A stretch of DNA of 33,232 bases, taken from Bacteroidia bacterium. Lineage in GTDB: Bacteria > Bacteroidota > Bacteroidia > B-17B0 > Aurantibacillaceae. The DNA is taken from NCBI GenBank assembly GCA_020846335.1, contig JADLED010000259.1:1-33232 (forward strand), read 5' to 3'. The notes beneath the pieces are model-generated. The model made no database searches and had not been told where the DNA came from. It saw nothing but the letters and a program-made list of their open reading frames with translations. Shown here piece by piece: positions 1-10,440 of this stretch; position 1 is the stretch's first letter; each line of letters starts with the position of its first letter. The translations under genes were made by a program, and so were the position numbers.

Positions 1-1194
1 ATTGTCCCAACACAAAGGCGATTGTTTGTTGGCATCCAGATGACTGAGCATAACCGTGGCCACCAACCATGGACTGTGTTCCAGTTGTTTGGTGAGTTCA
101 ACCGGGTAATTAAGTTGAGGTGATAGTATTTTTGCCACCACAAAAGGCGGCACTGCCAACACACACTGTTTACAAAGCACCCGTGTAATGGTATTGTTGG
201 TAAAGTTTTTTACGAGTAACTCCACATTATCGTTCACAATACTTATCGATTCCACCAAGCAGGAGGTAGTTATGTGATTACTCAATTTCTTTTCGAACAG
301 TTTAACCAGATAGCCATTACCTTCAGGCCAGGTTAATATGCGCGAGGCATCGGTGTTTGCGGGCTCTGCGCGGTGCGATGCAAAATAATTGATGCCTGCC
401 CAGGCCGAAACTCTGGCGATGCCTCCGCCGTAATCATCGCGGCAACAATAATTGAGATACCATAACAGGTGCGGGGAAGTAAAGTTATTCTGTGCTAAAT
501 ACTTTTCGAATGTGATTTTATCTAAAAAGTCGAAGTCTTTGTCGGTGGATGCTAATGCGCATGGCATTTCGAAAAAATATTTTCCGTCGCTTCCTTTCTT
601 TTCTTTAAAAATCTTTATCCAATCAAAAAAAAGTTTCGTTTCCAATTTTTCTTCTTTACTCAGGCCGTATTCGGGTACCAAACCTTCCTGAAAAACACCT
701 CTGATATACAAGCGTTCTTCTGGGTCGAAACACAAATCGGTTTCATTAAAAACAGGTCTTCCTTTTTCATCAAAGCTTTTAATAATGCCCTGTTCATTTA
801 AAAAGGCCATTAATTCTTTGTTGGCAGGATTGGGCATGGTGAGGTAATGCGCACCATGCGGGTATTCACTCAGCGCATTTTTTCCTGAACCTGAATTTCC
901 CCCGGCCTTTTCGCCAAGTTCGTAAATGGTAAAATTGTGTATTCCCTTATTTTTTAAATTATAGCCTGCCGATAAGCCCGAAATGCCTGCTCCAACAATT
1001 ACCACCTCTTTATATATTGTTTCGCCGGTTTTAAATTGTTGCTTTGCATCACGCAGTTGATGGGCTCTGCCGCTGTTGTCGGGTTTAAAGCGGATGTTAA
1101 TTTCAGAAGCATTTTTTGCAGGGATACATTTTGTTAATGTAATTCCGGCCAATCCTGACAAGGTGTATCTTAAAAATTTTCTCCGCGACAGCAT
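1..1194 (-). CDS. Exported FAD-dependent amine oxidoreductase (partial, C-terminus beyond window)
   Basis: The frame is open from the ATG at 1194 to the window edge (398 codons), so the C-terminus is missing. The N-terminus carries a twin-arginine signal (SRRKFLR, residues 3-9) followed by a short hydrophobic stretch and a cysteine at residue 23 (LTKC), which could be a poor lipobox. Residues about 55-70 give the Rossmann FAD motif VVIVGAGISGLSAGYN, as in flavin amine oxidases and NAD(P)/FAD oxidoreductases. The Tat signal implies folding with FAD in the cytoplasm and export. The start lies 1 nt after the stop of the spermidine synthase homologue, so the two are almost certainly co-transcribed. 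Inference: it oxidises a polyamine or a polyamine-modified envelope component. The substrate cannot be read from the sequence. Confidence 0.85.
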   Translation of the reverse strand, partial: MLSRRKFLRYTLSGLAGITLTKCIPAKNASEINIRFKPDNSGRAHQLRDAKQQFKTGETIYKEVVIVGAGISGLSAGYNLKNKGIHNFTIYELGEKAGGNSGSGKNALSEYPHGAHYLTMPNPANKELMAFLNEQGIIKSFDEKGRPVFNETDLCFDPEERLYIRGVFQEGLVPEYGLSKEEKLETKLFFDWIKIFKEKKGSDGKYFFEMPCALASTDKDFDFLDKITFEKYLAQNNFTSPHLLWYLNYCCRDDYGGGIARVSAWAGINYFASHRAEPANTDASRILTWPEGNGYLVKLFEKKLSNHITTSCLVESISIVNDNVELLVKNFTNNTITRVLCKQCVLAVPPFVVAKILSPQLNYPVELTKQLEHSPWLVATVMLSHLDANKQSPLCWDN

Positions 1195-1195
1195 G

Positions 1196-2692
1196 TTAAT
1201 ATTCGCTCCATTCTTTTTCAAAATGTTCCACCAACACCTGATTATCCAAGCGCTGCACATCGGTGGTATTTTTTACCATGTCGGCCGGAAAGGAGCTCAT
1301 TTGGGTAAATTCGTTGCGCGTAAAATACCTGAGTTGAGAGGGCAATTGAGCGGTTGCATTGTTGCTGAGTTGGTTTTCTGAAAAAAGAAAAAAGCCCCAT
1401 TCGCCAAACGAAGGTACATAAACGTGATAAGGCAGGGTGTTGAAACCGGAAGCCTTTAAGGTATTGTTTACACACCAATAAGATAGCGGAGCTACCAAAG
1501 GTGAGGTGCTTTGCACAACGCCAACCGAGTTGGGATTCATTACTTTTTTAAGAAAATGATAAAACGCGGTGGTATATAATTTTCCAACCGAATAGCCCGA
1601 AGGGTCAGGAAAATCAACGATTACCAAATCATAGGTGTTTTTGGTTGACTTGAGCCATTCAAAGGCATCGGCGTTAATGATTTCCAATTTTGGATTTGTG
1701 AACGAGTTATGGTTGAGTTGAGTGAGTACATGGTTGGCAGAAAAGAGTTCGGTGAGTTTTTTATCCAAATCAACCAGGGTTATTTTTTCCACGCCGGGAT
1801 ATTTAAGTACTTCGCGGGCTGCCATGCCATCGCCACCACCTAAGATAAGCACCGACGAACTTTTTTTTGCAAAGGCTGTCATGGGGTGTACCAGTGCTTC
1901 GTGGTAGCGGTATTCGTCCTGCGAGCTAAATTGCAAATTGTTATTGAGGTAAAGCCGAATATCGGATTTTTTACGTGTTATCACAATGCGTTGGTAGGGC
2001 GAAGAAGTGGAGTAAATAATATTCTCGCCAAACATGTGGCTTTCCGAAAAGCTCATAATTTCGTTGGAATAAACAAAGCCCATTAACAACAATAATAGCA
2101 CAACAAAGCCCTGCACCACCAACAGCGCCTGCCTCCGGATTTCGGATTTAAAATAATAACTCAGGTAAATGGCTAAAGACACATTCATCATGCCGAATAA
2201 AACAGAGGTGCGAATGAGCCCCAAAAACGGAACCATGATAAGTGGAAAGAGCAGTGATGCCAACAAGGCGCCAATGTAATCGAAGGTAAACACTTTAGAA
2301 ACGAGGTCCTTAAACTCGATGCGGTTGTTTAAAATCCGCATGATGAGAGGTATTTCGAGCCCCACCAAAGTGCCGGTGAGTAATACAATAAAGTAGAGCA
2401 GAAAGCGGAAGGATTCAACATAATTAAAACACACAAACAAAATTATGGAACTGAAGCCGCCAATAAGGCCGGTGATGATTTCGATTTGAATAAATGTGGC
2501 CAGCAGATTTTTTTTAATGTATTTGGAAAGAAATGCGCCAATGCCCATTGAAAACAAATACACGCCAATAACGGTTGAAAATTGCGTTACGGAATCGCCC
2601 AGCAAATAACTGGAAAGGGTACCTGCCACCAATTCGTAAATAAGGCCACAGGTGGAGATGACAAAAATGGTAAAAAAAAGTAAGTATTGCAT
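1196..2692 (-). CDS. Membrane-anchored spermidine synthase-like aminopropyltransferase
   Basis: 498 residues. The N-terminal 210 residues are very hydrophobic with about seven predicted membrane spans (roughly 1-28, 36-58, 68-90, 97-120, 136-156, 160-180, 188-208). The C-terminal part is a polyamine aminopropyltransferase domain: YHEALVHP (263-270), the SAM-type nucleotide loop GGGDG (285-289), DLD (308-310), and the acidic catalytic motif DFPDP (360-364, more often DLPDP or DSSDP). The terminal PSFGEWGFFLFS (427-438) is typical of the long membrane-fused branch of this family. The usual reaction moves an aminopropyl group from decarboxylated SAM to an amine, releasing methylthioadenosine. 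The gene follows DUF350 with a 4-nt gap. Membrane anchoring suggests an acceptor at or in the membrane; free putrescine remains possible. Confidence 0.9.
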   Translation of the reverse strand: MQYLLFFTIFVISTCGLIYELVAGTLSSYLLGDSVTQFSTVIGVYLFSMGIGAFLSKYIKKNLLATFIQIEIITGLIGGFSSIILFVCFNYVESFRFLLYFIVLLTGTLVGLEIPLIMRILNNRIEFKDLVSKVFTFDYIGALLASLLFPLIMVPFLGLIRTSVLFGMMNVSLAIYLSYYFKSEIRRQALLVVQGFVVLLLLLMGFVYSNEIMSFSESHMFGENIIYSTSSPYQRIVITRKKSDIRLYLNNNLQFSSQDEYRYHEALVHPMTAFAKKSSSVLILGGGDGMAAREVLKYPGVEKITLVDLDKKLTELFSANHVLTQLNHNSFTNPKLEIINADAFEWLKSTKNTYDLVIVDFPDPSGYSVGKLYTTAFYHFLKKVMNPNSVGVVQSTSPLVAPLSYWCVNNTLKASGFNTLPYHVYVPSFGEWGFFLFSENQLSNNATAQLPSQLRYFTRNEFTQMSSFPADMVKNTTDVQRLDNQVLVEHFEKEWSEY

Positions 2693-2696
2693 TTAC

Positions 2697-2912
2697 CTAG
2701 TGAATGGCCGATGCAATGATGATGGCAATGGCCAAAATGTAGGCAGCACCCATAATTGCCACCGCCATGTTTTTATGTTGAATAATTTCTTTCCAAACAT
2801 TTTCGGGTGTAATTTTTTCGATGATGTAAAACGAAATTACCAGAATGATGATGCCTAAAACGGAATAAACCACTGAGGCAAGAATGGCTTTGAGTTGTAA
2901 TAAATCTGTCAT
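2697..2912 (-). CDS. DUF350 family small membrane protein
   Basis: 71 residues with two hydrophobic spans (about 11-30 and 48-70) separated by a short polar loop containing ITPENVWKEI and HKNMAVAIM. This matches the DUF350 (YjfL-like) pattern as I recall it: a TP-x-x-x-x-x-EI loop, a conserved N-x-A-x-A-I segment, and a second helix ending in IIIASAI. The molecular function of DUF350 is not established. ATG start at 2912; it ends 4 nt before the spermidine synthase homologue and starts 14 nt after the preceding small gene, so it sits inside the operon. DUF350 is a recurrent neighbour of DUF4178 and aminopropyltransferase genes in several phyla, from memory. Confidence 0.8.
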   Translation of the reverse strand: MTDLLQLKAILASVVYSVLGIIILVISFYIIEKITPENVWKEIIQHKNMAVAIMGAAYILAIAIIIASAIH

Positions 2913-2926
2913 AATTATTTGTTGTT

Positions 2927-3109
2927 TTATTTGTGATAAATGTGTGAATTAGCGCCACGACCCGATTGCGTGGGTTTAAAATGTTCGGTGCTGGTTCCTG
3001 TAAACACCCGGTTTTCCGTTACATCGTAATAAATTAATGCGCCTGCGGCAACACCGGTAATAATGAGCCAAGCCCATTGCGCTGCGAACATATTTTTTAA
3101 TTCATTCAT
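2927..3109 (-). CDS. Small single-span membrane protein, unrecognised
   Basis: 60 residues: a short cytoplasmic-type N-terminus (MNELKNMFAAQ), one membrane span (about 12-28, WAWLIITGVAAGALIYY), then a polar tail rich in Ser, Thr, Gly and His. No family was recognised. Support for it being real is positional: it fills the space between DUF4178 and DUF350 with gaps of 11 and 14 nt, is on the same strand, and has membrane-protein composition. In actinobacterial versions of this neighbourhood another short membrane protein family (DUF4247) occurs in a comparable slot, from memory; no similarity to it is claimed. Confidence 0.65.
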   Translation of the reverse strand: MNELKNMFAAQWAWLIITGVAAGALIYYDVTENRVFTGTSTEHFKPTQSGRGANSHIYHK

Positions 3110-3120
3110 AGTTGTAAGTT

Positions 3121-4401
3121 TTATAAACCCAATCGTTTGTTTTCAAAATTGGCTCCCAGCACCATCACTGCAATTGCAATGACTCCATAAATTAACATTA
3201 TTATCCAAAAATTCCAGGCGGTGGCTGTTTGGCCAATGACCGTGGCCGAAAAGGTTTTGGATCTGCCAATAGCGTTGCTGCCGTAAATTTCGGCTTCTAT
3301 ATGATATGTGCCCGGAGTAATGTTGCCAACGTATTCTGTTTTTTTACTGCTTCCTTCGGTCCAACTACCATCTGAATCAACACCTGCATATAATTCAATA
3401 CCGGTTACAAAACTTTTTTCTTCGCCGGTATCGTCGTTAATAATGGTAATGGCCGCCTCCATCCAATCGTTATAAACGTTTGCGTTGCATTCAAAGCGAA
3501 GTTCTATTGGGTTATTGCCTAATACTTTAAAAGATTCTGTTACCACTTTGGCAGTTTTAACCGAATCAGTAATTTCTGCTTTTATTGAGGGGTAATTGGT
3601 TTCTGTTTCCATTGATGGCGCCAAAATCAAGTGTGTGAGCAAGGCCAGGGCAAAAAACACCAATGCTAAACGTCCAAAGCGGCCGGGTTTAATGCCGAAA
3701 TAAAATGGCTGGTAATCGCCAATGCCGTCCATTTCCGGTAAATTCACCAGCTCTTCTTCAAAGGCGTTTCGCAGTTTGCTTTCTTTAAGATAGATGCCAT
3801 TAAAGTACTCGTTGCGCCCCTCATAATATTCGTTGGTAAAAACGTGTGGTGGATTTGTGTATTCGCGCGTTACACGTTTGGAAACATCCACAATGTCGTA
3901 ATAAAATTGCCCGACAAAAGCGGTGGCCTTGTGCTTGTAGCTGGCCAGCAGGTCATAACCCAGGGTGTCATCGTGTTTCAGGTAACTGTCTTTTGGGTCG
4001 TAATTTTTTGGTTTCTCGCAAATTGTAAACAAAGACCAATGGCCATAGGCCTGATTCAGGTAGGCAGGCTCTCCATTTTCGCTAATAAGAGTGTATTCTT
4101 CCCACTTTATTGTGTGACCGCCTAGTTGTTGTTTTCGGGCAAAACCAACCAGAGTGTATTTTATTCCAAAAAAAGTGCATTTGCTGTAAAGAGGCAGAAT
4201 GGGCTTAATGCCTTCGTTTTTATGTTTGGAAATTTTGTTCTGTAGTTTGTCGTTTTTAGAAAACACGCTGCTGCATTTTGGGCAGGCGTATATTTCAATC
4301 TTATCTTGAAAATACAGCGGGGTTTCGTGATTGCAACGCGAACACCTGAAGTTTTTGCCTTTTGGGCCATCCATTATATTTTCTTCCCACGAAGCAATCA
4401 T
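3121..4401 (-). CDS. Zinc-ribbon DUF4178 protein with two membrane spans and an ectodomain
   Basis: 426 residues. In order: a zinc ribbon with paired CxxC motifs (Cys20/23 and Cys40/43); a DUF4178 module (about 70-215) recognisable from KWEEYTLISENGEPAYL and the following GHWSLF; a membrane span (about 243-261); a segment of about 135 residues rich in alternating beta-strand pattern, with DSDGSWTEGSS and GNITPGTYHIEAEI, resembling a beta-sandwich; and a second span (about 399-419) with a short basic tail. This puts ribbon and DUF4178 in the cytoplasm and the sandwich outside. The ATG overlaps the speD stop by 1 nt (TAATG), suggesting translational coupling. An internal ATG at residue 10 is an alternative start. 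Function is unknown; a sensor or scaffold role is inference. Confidence 0.82.
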   Translation of the reverse strand: MIASWEENIMDGPKGKNFRCSRCNHETPLYFQDKIEIYACPKCSSVFSKNDKLQNKISKHKNEGIKPILPLYSKCTFFGIKYTLVGFARKQQLGGHTIKWEEYTLISENGEPAYLNQAYGHWSLFTICEKPKNYDPKDSYLKHDDTLGYDLLASYKHKATAFVGQFYYDIVDVSKRVTREYTNPPHVFTNEYYEGRNEYFNGIYLKESKLRNAFEEELVNLPEMDGIGDYQPFYFGIKPGRFGRLALVFFALALLTHLILAPSMETETNYPSIKAEITDSVKTAKVVTESFKVLGNNPIELRFECNANVYNDWMEAAITIINDDTGEEKSFVTGIELYAGVDSDGSWTEGSSKKTEYVGNITPGTYHIEAEIYGSNAIGRSKTFSATVIGQTATAWNFWIIMLIYGVIAIAVMVLGANFENKRLGL

Positions 4402-4757
4402 TAACGGATGTGTTCTTTTAATTCATAGTTAATTGATTCGAAATATGCGATTATGTTAGCTGAAATATTTTTGGTTACATCGTTATTGTATTTTTGGTAG
4501 TTCGATAAAAACACATCGCAGGTGCAATAGTTGTGCTCGGGCCAGGTGTGAATGGAAATGTGCGATTCGGTTAAACAATGTACAGCCGTGTAACCCGCAT
4601 CCCCATCAAATTTATGTGATACTTTACCCAGTTGCGAAAGTCCAAAATTGGAAATTTGTTCTTCTATAAAAAGCATCCAAGCCGCCTCATCTTTTAATTT
4701 AATGGCGTTTTCGGAATGTATTCCTAATAAAATATGCAAGCCGGGTTTGTAGTTCAT
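4401..4757 (-). CDS. speD: S-adenosylmethionine decarboxylase-type pyruvoyl enzyme
   Basis: 118 residues from the ATG at 4757, the normal size for the short prokaryotic class. A TTG 33 nt upstream would add 11 low-complexity residues and is less likely. The motif CLTESHISIHTWPE (61-74) contains the Glu64-Ser65 self-cleavage site that forms the pyruvoyl group, and His70 matches the processing histidine. By alignment from memory with the Thermotoga and Bacillus enzymes, the catalytic cysteine of the DVFTCG motif falls at Ser85 here (DVFLSN), while Cys78 and Cys80 lie just before it. Classical role: decarboxylates SAM to give the aminopropyl donor, which fits the aminopropyltransferase in the same operon. 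The altered motif leaves another amino-acid decarboxylase activity possible. It is the first confidently called gene of the operon. Confidence 0.88.
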   Translation of the reverse strand: MNYKPGLHILLGIHSENAIKLKDEAAWMLFIEEQISNFGLSQLGKVSHKFDGDAGYTAVHCLTESHISIHTWPEHNYCTCDVFLSNYQKYNNDVTKNISANIIAYFESINYELKEHIR

Positions 4758-5074
4758 AGTGCCGAATTTATTACTTTTTTTTTGCAACAAGGTATAAATC
4801 GCTTGAGAAAATCCGAAACAGAATCATTTTTAAAAAATGCACCTGCAATTAAACTCAGCAAGGAAAAACAAAAATAATACTCACAAATCCCTCCATAAAA
4901 ATTACTTTTTGGCATTTGGGGCAAAACTTTAATCATGGTCAGAAATATACCTAAGTACAAACGCAGATTAAGGAAGCTGGGTGCTTCTCTATCAGTATTC
5001 GGATACAATGCTAAATCAGGCAGTTTCACAACCATATTTTTTCTGAAAATAAATGATTTATTGCAATACTGCAA
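4754..5074 (-). CDS. Possible small protein overlapping speD start, unrecognised
   Basis: An open frame of up to 106 codons whose TGA overlaps the speD ATG in an ATGA arrangement, typical of coupled genes. A shorter start at Met14 is possible. The translation has two moderately hydrophobic stretches and a Lys/Cys-rich end (CCKKKVINSA). No family was recognised and codon choice looks less biased than in neighbouring genes. It may be chance, a decayed gene, or a real small membrane protein at the head of the polyamine operon. Confidence 0.2.
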   Translation of the reverse strand: MQYCNKSFIFRKNMVVKLPDLALYPNTDREAPSFLNLRLYLGIFLTMIKVLPQMPKSNFYGGICEYYFCFSLLSLIAGAFFKNDSVSDFLKRFIPCCKKKVINSAL

Positions 5075-6896: not shown

Positions 6897-7328
6897 TTAC
6901 GGATAATAAATCACCACTTTAAAACTGGCGGTGGCCGGAGCCGGTGGCGTTCCGTGGTCTTTGTAGGTATTCAATTTTATAATTCCCTTTTCGAAAGAGT
7001 ATTGCGTAAAAATGTCTGATACGGCGTAAGGCAGCGGCCACCAGTAGCCGTCCACAAGTATATAAACTTTTACTTCGCCTTTGGCCACCACGTTATCTGT
7101 AATCTCGGCCACATAGGCCAGGGCCTGCCAGTTTCTGCCCACCGCGCTCCAGTCTTTGGCCGCCACACTAAACACGGTGCTGCTAAATTGTTTGGCGTTA
7201 CCGGTTCCGCCGGGTGTGCCCGGGTCGCCTTTGGGGCCGGGCACCTGCTTGGTGCATGCCGTTGTTAGTAGTGCCAAAAAAGACAAAACAATCACGGTTT
7301 TTTTACCAAAAATTTTTATTACCTGCAT
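6897..7328 (-). CDS. Lipoprotein with short collagen-like motif (paralogue B)
   Basis: 143 residues from the ATG at 7328; a TTG at 7337 would add three residues. Type II signal peptide with lipobox LTTAC, followed at once by a Gly-Pro-rich stretch PGPKGDPGTPGG resembling three or four collagen triplets. The remaining part of about 100 residues is beta-rich (VKVYILVDGYWWPLPYAVSD, then IFTQYSFEKGIIKL) and closely parallels the upstream neighbour, showing tandem duplication. The start follows the neighbour's stop by 11 nt, so they form an operon. Function is unknown; anchoring in the outer membrane or periplasm follows from the lipobox. Confidence 0.8.
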   Translation of the reverse strand: MQVIKIFGKKTVIVLSFLALLTTACTKQVPGPKGDPGTPGGTGNAKQFSSTVFSVAAKDWSAVGRNWQALAYVAEITDNVVAKGEVKVYILVDGYWWPLPYAVSDIFTQYSFEKGIIKLNTYKDHGTPPAPATASFKVVIYYP

Positions 7329-7339
7329 CGTTTTCAATT

Positions 7340-7861
7340 TTAATGATTGTTGGATGAGTTGTTTTTATTTTCGGAAAGCGCTTCGTTTGTTGAATGATTA
7401 CCGGCCATGCGGGCACTTTTACTCAATATTACCAAACGGTAGTAACCTGTTTCAGGACGTGGAATTTTTTCGCCATGCACATCGGATTGTATGAGCTTGA
7501 GGGTTCCTTCAGAATAACCGTATTGAGTGTATAAGTCGGCGTCGATGTAAGGCAATTCAAACCAGGCACTTCCAATTTGATAATACAGTTTTACACTGCC
7601 GCTGTTTGCCGCTTCTTTTGTGATAAGTGTAGTGCTATAGGTGGACTGCCAAAGGCTTGAGTCGGCAGAGGTGGGTTGCCATTGCGTGGTGCCTATTACA
7701 AACACATCGGAATTAGAAATATTGGTATTGCCGCCATTGCCCGGCGTTCCGGGGTCGCCCTTTGGCCCCTGAATTTCCTTTTTTTTGCAGGAACTAAAGG
7801 TTATTGCTAAACTAAAAATAAATAGAACTGCTACTTTTAATATTTTAAGCTGATGCTTCAT
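7340..7861 (-). CDS. Lipoprotein with short collagen-like motif (paralogue A)
   Basis: 173 residues with ATG at 7861. Type II signal peptide ending in TFSSC, then KKK and the motif QGPKGDPGTPGNGG. The domain after it has the same order of elements as the downstream paralogue: a Trp-containing strand (TTQWQP), VKLYYQIGSAWFELPYIDAD, LYTQYGYSEGTLKL, and a final YYRLVILS strand. A polar Asn/Ser-rich tail of about 25 residues follows that the paralogue lacks. Members of this type (lipoprotein, GPKGDPG linker, beta domain) recur in Bacteroidota, from memory, but have no assigned role. It is the first gene of the two-gene operon. Confidence 0.8.
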   Translation of the reverse strand: MKHQLKILKVAVLFIFSLAITFSSCKKKEIQGPKGDPGTPGNGGNTNISNSDVFVIGTTQWQPTSADSSLWQSTYSTTLITKEAANSGSVKLYYQIGSAWFELPYIDADLYTQYGYSEGTLKLIQSDVHGEKIPRPETGYYRLVILSKSARMAGNHSTNEALSENKNNSSNNH

Positions 7862-8382
7862 TGGCTGTTATTTTTTTTCAGCCTTAATATACAAAAATTA
7901 TGCCGTTGATAAGTACAACAATGAAATACCATTAAAAAATGTGCTCATTCCCTAACTACCGAAACAAATCAGGTCTTAATAAAACAGACCTGATTGTTCG
8001 GTATCACACACAACCAGAAATTGAATTACACGATCAACTCCTTAATTGACTATAGTCCTGATAAACGCATTTAGTTGGGTAGATTAAGTTTATTTTTATT
8101 GCTAAGGATAGTCAGTTGCACGAACACCAAAAAAACCGCGAAGTTCGGGTTGAAATAAGAAAGGGACAATTGGTAGCCTGACTGAACACTATTTGTAGGC
8201 TCCTTCAAACAATTCACTCTCTTTGTTAGGCCTTGTTGAAAGACTTTTTCGGCTCTTTAAAAAAATGCCTAAAAATTTCAGAAAACAGGGCAGGCTTATT
8301 TGAATGAAGGTAATTATATTCTTCTTTCGACTTAACACCTTTATTTTATGATTGCCTACTATTAAATCTTACATTCGTAGAA
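7862..8382. other. Divergent intergenic region, one strong hairpin, no gene
   Basis: About 520 nt of AT-rich DNA between two divergent lipoprotein genes. The only structure noticed is the long inverted repeat at 7959-8001, listed separately. A partial -7-like box (TACATTCG, 8370-8377) lies immediately before the ATG at 8383; if used, the transcript would be nearly leaderless. Confidence 0.4.
7959..8001. repeat. Long imperfect inverted repeat (hairpin)
   Basis: The left arm at 7959-7976 (CCGAAACAAATCAGGTCT) pairs with the right arm at 7986-8001 (AGACCTGATTGTTCGG), 16 pairs with two single-A bulges, around a 9-nt loop. No T-tract follows on either strand and it lies between divergent genes, so it is not an ordinary terminator. 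Confidence 0.7.
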
Positions 8383-8883
8383 ATGAAAAAGGAGCATTTG
8401 ATTCTTTTTAAATCAGGATTGATTGTTAGTGTGTTTTTTACGATGGCCATTTTCGGCTGTAAAAAACCAGATAGTTCAACAACTTCAGAGTCTTGTACAC
8501 TTGATTGTAAAAATGGAGGAACCTGGTCCGACAATGCCTGTAACTGTCCGCCGGAATGGTCGGGAGCAAACTGCGAGACTTATTACACCGACACATACAA
8601 AGGCGTTTACAGTTCGAATAACTACAACTGCGGCATGGGAGTTGGAACTCAGAGTTATTTGGTTACGGTTGATCAGGGAAACAGGAATCGTATTAAGATA
8701 GGAGCCATATTGGCTGACATGACCGATCTTACTCATTTTGTTATTCCGCAGCAGCCAACGTTTATTGGTGGTTCGGGCACCATTGACGGAAAAAACATGA
8801 ACCTCTCTTTTACGTTTACCTCTACTACATTCACAAATGTGGTATTAACCCAAAGTTGCAGTGCAAGTTTTACCAAAAACTGA
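8383..8883 (+). CDS. EGF-like lipoprotein
   Basis: 166 residues. Type II signal peptide ending at the lipobox-like AIFGC with a following KK, then a Ser/Thr linker and an EGF-like module (about 38-66) with six cysteines in the expected order, including CKNGGTW, CNCPPEWSGANC. The remaining 100 residues are a beta-rich domain with two more cysteines (YNCGMG and TQSCSASF near the end) that may form a disulfide. EGF-plus-beta-domain lipoproteins of this size occur in Bacteroidota; the role is unknown. It stands alone on its strand. Confidence 0.8.
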   Translation: MKKEHLILFKSGLIVSVFFTMAIFGCKKPDSSTTSESCTLDCKNGGTWSDNACNCPPEWSGANCETYYTDTYKGVYSSNNYNCGMGVGTQSYLVTVDQGNRNRIKIGAILADMTDLTHFVIPQQPTFIGGSGTIDGKNMNLSFTFTSTTFTNVVLTQSCSASFTKN

Positions 8884-9063
8884 TTTCGATTTTAATTTGT
8901 CTGGATAAGTTGCCTTATACTGAAATGATAGACGTGGTTTAGTTTATCAGGTTTACTTTCTTTATTGTTTGGACATGCTCTTGTTGCCAAGCTAAATAAA
9001 GTGCGGGTTAAGGTATTTTGTTTTTAAATTCGTTCATCAGGTTTGACTAAGTCAATAAAACAA

Positions 9064-9086
9064 AAAACCCGCCAAAGGCGGGTTTT
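9064..9086 (-). terminator. Rho-independent terminator downstream of tRNA-Cys
   Basis: Perfect 10-bp stem AAAACCCGCC (9064-9073) and GGCGGGTTTT (9077-9086) with a 3-nt loop. Read on the minus strand it ends in a run of six T residues (9062-9067), placing it 4 nt beyond the 3' end of the tRNA. Confidence 0.85.
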
Positions 9087-9090
9087 GCTG

Positions 9091-9161
9091 AGGTCCCATC
9101 CGGATTCGAACCGGAGTAGCAGCTTTTGCAGAGCTGAGCCTAGCCGCTCGGCCACAGGACC
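9091..9161 (-). tRNA. tRNA-Cys (anticodon GCA)
   Basis: The 71-nt minus-strand sequence folds as a tRNA. The acceptor arm is GGTCCTG with TGGGACC, followed by discriminator U, the identity base of tRNA-Cys. The anticodon stem CAGCT/AGCTG encloses the loop CTGCAAA, giving anticodon GCA. The T arm is TCCGG-TTCGAAT-CCGGA. No CCA is encoded. Confidence 0.95.
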
Positions 9162-9297
9162 ATTGAAATTATAGATGTTAAATTGGAAATTATAAATGTG
9201 TTTAATTCAACATTTATCATTCATCATTTAACATTTCTAAGAACGGGTAGCAAAAATAGGATTTTTTTAGCAATTTGCAGGGAACTATTTTAAAAAA

Positions 9298-10440
9298 ATG
9301 CAAATTAATTCCAAATTGCCCAATGTGGGCACCACCATTTTTACGGTAATGAGCGCGCTGGCCCGCGAACACAATGCCATCAACCTTTCGCAGGGCTTTC
9401 CTGATTTTGATTGCTCACCCAAACTGATGGAGCTGGCCAACAAATACATCCGTTCGGGCTTTAACCAATACGCACCCATGCCCGGCACACAGGCCCTGCG
9501 CGAACGTATTGCTGAAATTTTAAGTACGTGTTATGGCGCTTCTTATCACCCCGAAACCGAGATTACCGTTACCGCGGGCGCCACACAGGCCATTTACACC
9601 GCGCTGGCCGCCTTTGTTGGGTCGGGCGATGAAGTAATTGTGTTTGAACCTGCTTACGATTGTTATGTACCAGCAATTGAATTGCAGGGCGGAAAGGCCG
9701 TGTATTCGCAATTAAACGCCCCCGAATTTGCCATTAATTGGGCCGATGTGCGGTCGAAAATAACTTCGCGCACAAAAGCTATAATAATTAATTCGCCCCA
9801 TAATCCAAGTGGAACCACTCTTAGCCAAGCCGACATTGCCGAACTGGAGCGCCTTGTAGCCGGCACTAACATTTTAGTGATTAGCGACGAAGTTTACGAG
9901 CACATGGTATTTGATGGACAAAGTCACCAAAGTGTGGCCATGAGCAAAACCTTGGCGGCACAGTCCATTTTGGTGTCATCATTCGGAAAAACCGTACACA
10001 CCACCGGTTGGAAAATTGGATATGTGGCCGCCCCAAAAGAAATAATGGTGGAGTTCAGAAAAGTGCATCAGTTTTTGGTGTTTGTTGTAAATCACCCGCT
10101 GCAACTGGCTTTGGCCGATTTTTTAGCGGATAAGGACAACTACCTTCAACTCAAAAATTTTTACCAGCAAAAACGCGATTTGTTTTTACGCCTTACACAA
10201 TCCTCAAAATTAAAACCTTTGAAAACCGCTGGCACTTATTTTCAGTTGATGAGTTATAGCGCGATTAGTAACGAGAACGACAGCGAATTGGCCGTTCGCT
10301 TAACGAAGGAGAAAAAACTGGCCACCATACCACTATCGGTGTTTTACAGCCAAAAAACAGACAATAAATTATTGAGATTTTGTTTTGCCAAAAAAGACGA
10401 AACCATTGAAAAGGCCGCAGAAATTATTTGCGCCCTGTAA
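9298..10440 (+). CDS. Class I aminotransferase, methionine/kynurenine type
   Basis: 380 residues, a full-length fold type I PLP aminotransferase. Visible motifs: NLSQGFPDFDCS (29-40), the glycine-rich AGATQAIYTAL (93-103), NSPHNPSG (165-172) with the PLP-contacting Asn, ISDEVYEHMVFDG (195-207) with Asp and Tyr, and the Schiff-base lysine Lys231 in SSFGKTVHTTGWK. LLRFCFAK near the end supplies the substrate-carboxylate arginine. The wording resembles E. coli YbdL (methionine aminotransferase) and the kynurenine aminotransferase branch. It could perform the last transamination of methionine salvage, or general amino-acid transamination. ATG start right after an AT-rich leader; no operon partner. 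Confidence 0.9.
   Translation: MQINSKLPNVGTTIFTVMSALAREHNAINLSQGFPDFDCSPKLMELANKYIRSGFNQYAPMPGTQALRERIAEILSTCYGASYHPETEITVTAGATQAIYTALAAFVGSGDEVIVFEPAYDCYVPAIELQGGKAVYSQLNAPEFAINWADVRSKITSRTKAIIINSPHNPSGTTLSQADIAELERLVAGTNILVISDEVYEHMVFDGQSHQSVAMSKTLAAQSILVSSFGKTVHTTGWKIGYVAAPKEIMVEFRKVHQFLVFVVNHPLQLALADFLADKDNYLQLKNFYQQKRDLFLRLTQSSKLKPLKTAGTYFQLMSYSAISNENDSELAVRLTKEKKLATIPLSVFYSQKTDNKLLRFCFAKKDETIEKAAEIICAL

Follow-up and report, generated by a model that had tools for sequence, protein, structure and literature searches.

Membrane-SpdSyn fusions together with SpeD are reportedly widespread, fail to complement speE, and are often found beside DUF350 (Li et al. 2019, Biochem J); a role outside polyamine synthesis is said to have been proposed there, and the acceptor was reportedly not identified. 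The locus that we describe here likewise joins SpeD, a membrane-fused SpdSyn, and DUF350, and we add a small protein, a predicted topology, and a seventh gene. Ravi et al. 2024 (PMC11237479), who cite Li et al. 2019 as reference 89, describe an operon of 7TM-SpeE, DUF350, DUF4178, and a lipoprotein with PspA (Shewanella AAN56744-AAN56747), and they propose polyamine monitoring or the aminopropylation of other substrates. This PspA/CesT-Tir/7TM-SpeE group shares with our locus the combination of 7TM-SpeE, DUF350, and DUF4178 and the presence of a partner protein (there a lipoprotein), but its DUF350 has 8 transmembrane (TM) helices where ours is one 2-TM unit. Also, PspA and CesT/Tir are absent from our operon, from speD through the seventh gene, and our operon has in addition SpeD, the seventh gene, and an oxidase that bears a signal peptide. 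The passages on this group make no mention of a C-terminal lysine.

Two other systems are worth comparing. In YgiBC/YjfMC (DUF1190 plus a peptide-spermidine ligase, with DUF350 in yjf), an envelope partner with a conserved C-terminus also lies beside a polyamine-handling enzyme and DUF350. There, however, the enzyme is an amide ligase that acts on a carboxyl group and the partner ends in glycine; such a ligase is absent from our genome, as a profile search of it for the GSP_synth ATP-grasp family (PF03738) gave no match. The fungal 7TM N-terminal histidine methyltransferase NHMT, which is located in the ER and acts on the terminal residue of secreted proteins (PMC10349129), has an N-terminal 7TM region and an SpdSyn-like domain and is a precedent for the architecture. 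But SAM is the substrate of NHMT, and Ile stands in its GxG(D/E)G motif (PMC10349129), while our enzyme keeps Asp (GGGDG) and is encoded with SpeD; on these two grounds we rejected an NHMT-like, SAM-dependent methyltransferase. The neighborhood, then, is already partly described and the cluster itself is not new; our additions are the terminal lysine, its glycine counterpart, and the predicted outside topology of the transferase domain.

The window (the whole stretch of DNA that we analyzed, 33,232 nucleotides) is the entire contig C259 of a 4.31-Mb draft genome. By a check of open reading frames and sequences, six ORFs run on the minus strand from 4757 to the contig start, which is where a sequence-only reading had placed them. 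The features, in gene order, are:

4401 to 4757, minus strand: speD-like pyruvoyl decarboxylase, 118 amino acids from the ATG (PF02675)
3121 to 4401, minus strand: zinc-ribbon/DUF4178-like membrane protein, 426 amino acids, with CxxC pairs and hydrophobic segments; same-position homologues match PF13785
2927 to 3109, minus strand: 60-amino-acid protein with a single TM helix, ending SHIYHK and without a family; the proposed acceptor
2930 to 2938, minus strand: codons for the C-terminal Tyr-His-Lys, the final one being AAA (2930 to 2932)
2697 to 2912, minus strand: DUF350, one 2-TM unit, 71 amino acids (PF03994)
1196 to 2692, minus strand: 7TM-aminopropyltransferase (7TM-SpeE), 498 amino acids, NF002956/PRK03612 family
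1 to 1194, minus strand: FAD amine-oxidase-like protein with a twin-arginine signal, first 398 amino acids (PF01593)
contig C163 (L077), 8299 to 9354, minus strand: seventh operon gene (G7), a polytopic protein of about 350 amino acids, downstream of the oxidase in relatives too

In gene order, the spacing is a 1-nt overlap and then 11, 14, 4, and 1 nt, so the coordinates and the family matches confirm the claim of a tight six-gene unit with gaps of 1-14 nt or overlap. The six genes are indeed present, but the contig start cuts the oxidase gene, and its C-terminal 139 amino acids and the seventh gene are found at the end of contig C163 from the same genome. When aligned to a relative's oxidase, the part in the window covers residues 15-411 and the end of C163 covers 413-548. 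The Pfam scores are all above the cut-offs (AdoMet_dc 69.5 bits, DUF350 51.7, Spermine_synth 128.6, and Amino_oxidase 39.7). The label of DUF4178 holds only by way of homologues: a Pfam search with the zinc-ribbon protein of the window gave no match to the DUF4178 model at E ≤ 1, while proteins at the same position elsewhere do match PF13785 (L058, 3.7e-8; L057, 3.5e-22; L060, 2.3e-19; and L165, 1.6e-12). From its N-terminus, this protein has a zinc ribbon, the DUF4178-like domain, a TM helix, a beta-rich segment, and a second TM helix. An alternative TTG start for speD, at 4790, is possible. The ORFs that flank the operon are apparently unrelated to it, and we rejected a reading as a defense system, for which PADLOC gave domain-level matches only (mad2, 51 bits). 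Elsewhere in the window (6897 to 7861, minus strand), two neighboring small lipoprotein-like genes have a collagen-like stretch (GPKGDPGTPG) in common.

The operon is patchily distributed. The transferase is above its cut-off in one of 36 genus relatives (one other genome) and in 25 of 345 Bacteroidota genomes. At 58% identity, the 7TM-SpeE proteins of the two genus members resemble each other no more than the window's protein resembles its counterparts in other families and phyla, a pattern that suggests horizontal transfer. Scanning our collection at 50% identity or above gave 80 loci from the Bacteroidota, Proteobacteria, Leptospirales, Acidobacteriota, Verrucomicrobiota, and others. Among the 73 loci with sufficient flank for a survey of gene order, 69 have DUF4178, 69 DUF350, 67 the small protein, 66 SpeD, 64 the oxidase, and 51 G7. 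In 37 of these 73 loci, the genes stand in precisely the order SpeD-DUF4178-small-DUF350-SpeE-oxidase-G7, and most of the others are minor variants, so the grouping is not due to chance. The families are kept together far beyond close relatives, so the lack of co-conservation that would have refuted the sequence-only reading did not show up. On the other hand, a betaproteobacterial lineage of 7TM-SpeE (L134, L142, L144, L151, L153, L156, and L157, some of them at contig ends) was found without the operon partners, the small protein included, and may have another role. Two variant clusters can be noted here. In Solitalea agri (L080, 5083 to 8913), DUF4178-DUF350 is duplicated in tandem within the operon. 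In the mixed cluster L071 (6531 to 8624), 7TM-SpeE and SpeD are joined by an ATP-grasp protein similar to GspS/YgiC and by a TM protein that ends in Gly-Gly (YGG).

To examine the end of the small protein, we chose at 82 loci the longest ORF lying between the genes for DUF4178 and DUF350, ignoring how it ended, and 74 of the 82 end in lysine; the remaining 8 hold a shorter alternative ORF that ends in HK. Counting these alternative frames, all 82 loci have a small protein ending in [HG]K in the gap. At two more loci (L062 and L122) there is no separate small gene, and the DUF4178 protein itself bears a tail that ends in HK, which is a fusion. A C-terminal lysine is rare in the neighboring families (DUF350, 0 of 85; SpeE, 0 of 100; SpeD, 1 of 75; DUF4178, 6 of 115; oxidase, 4 of 80), and the baseline among local ORFs is 13% for Lys and 1.5% for [HG]K. 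The 82 small proteins form 30 clusters below 40% identity, and the penultimate residue is His in 63 of 71 distinct proteins. Within the set that ends in HK or GK, information content peaks at the last three residues (4.3, 3.8, and 2.6 bits; the way the set was selected partly determines the first two figures), and the residues ahead of the final four vary widely. K/R residues are more numerous before the TM helix than after it in 42 cases, versus 3 with the reverse, so the 60-amino-acid protein is predicted to have its N-terminus inside and its C-terminus outside.

The lysine codon is also biased (window 2930-2932 and loci L080-L159). It is AAA in 76 of 82 loci, which is above local codon usage, and AAG in 6; in GC-rich loci, AAA is found in 19 of 25 as against 8.3 expected. 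The preference for AAA may mean that part of the terminal-lysine pattern acts at the nucleotide level. We rejected a cause at the nucleotide level only, given the 6 AAG codons, the preceding His codons (divided 40/33), and the neighboring genes that seldom end in Lys. A conserved terminus proves nothing by itself, because the operon's SpeD proteins (loci L056-L159) also end in a particular residue, Arg, in 60 of 75 loci. The conserved lysine could have a role in binding instead of being modified.

Partners in other kinds of clusters have their own characteristic ends. Other proteins adjoining 7TM-SpeE, which are dissimilar in sequence, end in GFGK, SGGK, SSGK, ESGK, and RVK; in particular, a second type of cluster, which has PspA-like proteins and larger members of DUF350, encodes a lipoprotein partner that differs in sequence and has GFGK, SGGK, or SSGK at its end. 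In E. coli, YgiB ends in MGG and YjfM in WGG, and their neighbors YgiC and YjfC bear the name peptide-spermidine ligase (Pederick 2023, as cited in PMC12568646). Further partners adjoining such ligases end in WGS, FGG, FGG, CCG, SGS, and VGG, so the partners in ligase-type clusters end in Gly or Gly-Ser, and we infer that ligases of the YgiC/YjfC type may act on exactly these C-termini. A ligase requires a carboxyl group and an aminopropyltransferase requires an amine, so that Gly in the ligase clusters and Lys in the transferase clusters each fit the chemistry of the cluster's enzyme.

The 7TM-SpeE protein belongs to the NF002956/PRK03612 family of polyamine aminopropyltransferases (655.4 bits over residues 2-497, cut-off 472). 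It is not a stand-alone soluble SpeE: TIGR00417 gives 137 bits, below the cut-off of 249.55, there are 7 TM helices, and the classical acceptor motif Asp-x-[ST]-Asp-Pro is absent. In an AF2 model (pLDDT 90), helices occupy about residues 1-207, which we read as seven TM segments, and an SpdSyn-like domain occupies about 222-498; Foldseek finds that this domain resembles solved aminopropyltransferases (1uir, E 1.1e-16). Averaged over 101 sequences, the number of K/R residues is 1.76 at the N-terminus, then 0.32, 1.99, 0.55, 3.47, 0.77, and 2.05 in the successive loops, and 1.73 in the 23 residues after TM7. The N-terminus and loops 2-3, 4-5, and 6-7 are rich in K/R, while loops 1-2, 3-4, and 5-6 and the stretch after TM7 are poor. 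Applied to seven helices with this alternation, the positive-inside rule predicts an extracytoplasmic catalytic domain. The residues for binding decarboxylated AdoMet (dcAdoMet) are kept, namely GGG[D/E]G, YHE, and both Asp of DxPDP. The GxG(D/E)G position is acidic in all 97 homologues that could be parsed (4 could not). At the acceptor motif, 101 of 101 homologues read D[FLV]PDP, where the two nearest solved enzymes have DLTDP.

The SpeD of the window has the motifs ESH...IHTWPE. Compared with the class 1b SpeD of T. maritima, which has the pyruvoyl-forming Ser63, His68, and Cys83 (PMC10407285), the Ser and His are kept but there is a Ser at the position of the catalytic Cys83, as in 28 of 67 parsed sequences, and the TIGR03330 score is 62.9 bits against a cut-off of 75.65. 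This SpeD could be a neofunctionalized ornithine or arginine decarboxylase, but because an aminopropyltransferase is encoded alongside, AdoMet is the likelier substrate. The oxidase has a Tat signal (SRRKFL at the N-terminus) and an Amino_oxidase domain (PF01593, 39.7 bits). Its homologues have the RR motif in 50 of 79 cases, and the rest are SRKDFLK-like or mis-started; its similarity to a polyamine oxidase in the PDB is weak and covers the FAD-binding part only (E 4e-5). The seventh protein has no match in Pfam or NCBIfam and, although its AF2 model is confident (pLDDT 89.7), no PDB match below E 0.001 in a fold search. Its invariant residues (D50, H53, H108, H236, E284, E285, H329, and D333, numbered by the first aligned sequence) suggest that it is possibly a metal-dependent membrane enzyme.

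From the gene content, the conservation, the terminal lysine, the predicted topology, and the active-site residues, all of which are read from sequence, we infer an acceptor, the export of dcAdoMet, an oxidation step, and a physiological role. The explanation that we favor, and to which we give close to an even chance, is that this is an envelope protein-modification operon, which uses dcAdoMet to aminopropylate the C-terminal lysine of the small membrane protein, to be oxidized later. SpeD would make dcAdoMet, which would cross the inner membrane, perhaps via the 7TM domain or DUF350. 7TM-SpeE would then move the aminopropyl group onto the amine in the side chain of the 60-amino-acid protein's final lysine. 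Because that side chain is an aminobutyl group, the protein would come to carry a tail that resembles spermidine. The flavin oxidase with its signal, the domain of the transferase, and the lysine tail would all be found outside the inner membrane, at its outer face, where the oxidase, with the seventh membrane protein, would oxidize or trim the tail. As for the DUF4178/zinc-ribbon protein, it probably spans the membrane as a scaffold or sensor. Several points count against this explanation: we know of no dcAdoMet exporter, the betaproteobacterial loci were found without the small protein, L071 is mixed, the lysine codon is biased towards AAA, and Ser replaces Cys83.

More generally, there may be a new posttranslational modification, the extracytoplasmic aminopropylation of C-terminal lysines on small membrane proteins or lipoproteins, giving an anchored spermidine-like tail; dcAdoMet would be exported, and oxidation would follow at the surface. 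Such a modification would parallel a possible ligation of spermidine to Gly of the YgiBC type. We hold this tentatively, as something that falls somewhat short of an even chance. A limited literature search found no paper on aminopropylation of a C-terminal lysine.

The acceptor might instead be a membrane lipid or a surface polymer, which were among the options in the sequence-only reading, with the small protein as a subunit or regulator whose lysine tail binds a partner. The transferase is embedded in the membrane, and the association of DUF350 with PspA points to membrane homeostasis (PMC11237479), both of which would suit such an acceptor. We nevertheless think it unlikely, as it would leave unexplained both the C-terminal lysine that is common to dissimilar partners across cluster types and the C-terminal glycine of the ligase-type partners.

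We are more doubtful still that this is an unusual but ordinary spermidine pathway, in which the membrane SpeE uses SpeA-derived putrescine and releases free spermidine and the other genes are accessory. It is true that the operon holds the genome's sole copy of SpeD and its only SpeE-domain protein above the cut-off, that the dcAdoMet-binding residues are retained, and that a speA-like arginine decarboxylase fragment is present on contig C188. (The genome also has lysA and one other PLP decarboxylase; no match to nspC in the genome reaches the cut-off.) Gene content by itself is therefore compatible with free spermidine. The sequence-only reading had stressed that there is no ornithine or arginine decarboxylase, which is correct for the operon but uninformative, because the speA-like gene lies elsewhere. 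Against free spermidine, the patchy distribution (1/36 and 25/345) implies that the operon is not housekeeping, the catalytic domain is predicted to be outside, and there is tight coupling to a protein that ends in lysine and to an oxidase with an export signal. Also, the fusions reportedly fail to complement an E. coli speE mutant, with spermidine absent (Li et al. 2019). Alternatively, the small protein might be a RiPP-like precursor that is modified at its C-terminal lysine and oxidized, with a small molecule or cofactor as the released product. A short precursor-like gene with a conserved terminus does lie beside genes for a transferase, for an oxidase, and for a polytopic protein in which His/Asp/Glu residues are invariant, but we think this very improbable, as the conserved gene set has no protease, the sequence ahead of the last four residues is highly variable, and in the fused proteins of L062 and L122 the tail stays part of a large membrane protein.

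Overall, the interpretation in the sequence-only reading is partly supported. The unit looks unlike a simple route to free spermidine, and its placement at the membrane and outside is supported. The suggestion that a polyamine is built onto or moved across the membrane is partly supported as regards the envelope, but it left the acceptor open, and the 60-amino-acid protein that ends in lysine is a better candidate. It was also right that there is no established mechanism, although the cluster, and with it the proposal that a substrate besides putrescine is aminopropylated, had already been published (PMC11237479).

Many bacterial genomes have 7TM-SpeE clusters annotated as spermidine synthesis, and with an acceptor residue now proposed by name, mass spectrometry can address directly what their acceptor is. 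If aminopropylation of the terminal lysine is correct, it would be a new protein modification and would give a reason for the link of DUF350, DUF4178, and PspA with polyamines in envelope stress; one principle would then span the ligase-type (Gly) and transferase-type (Lys) clusters. Finally, on contig C93 of G000 (L161, 244 to 2673), a PLP decarboxylase of the FslC/LysA type directly follows an ATP-grasp protein, and the two are possibly a small biosynthetic pair.
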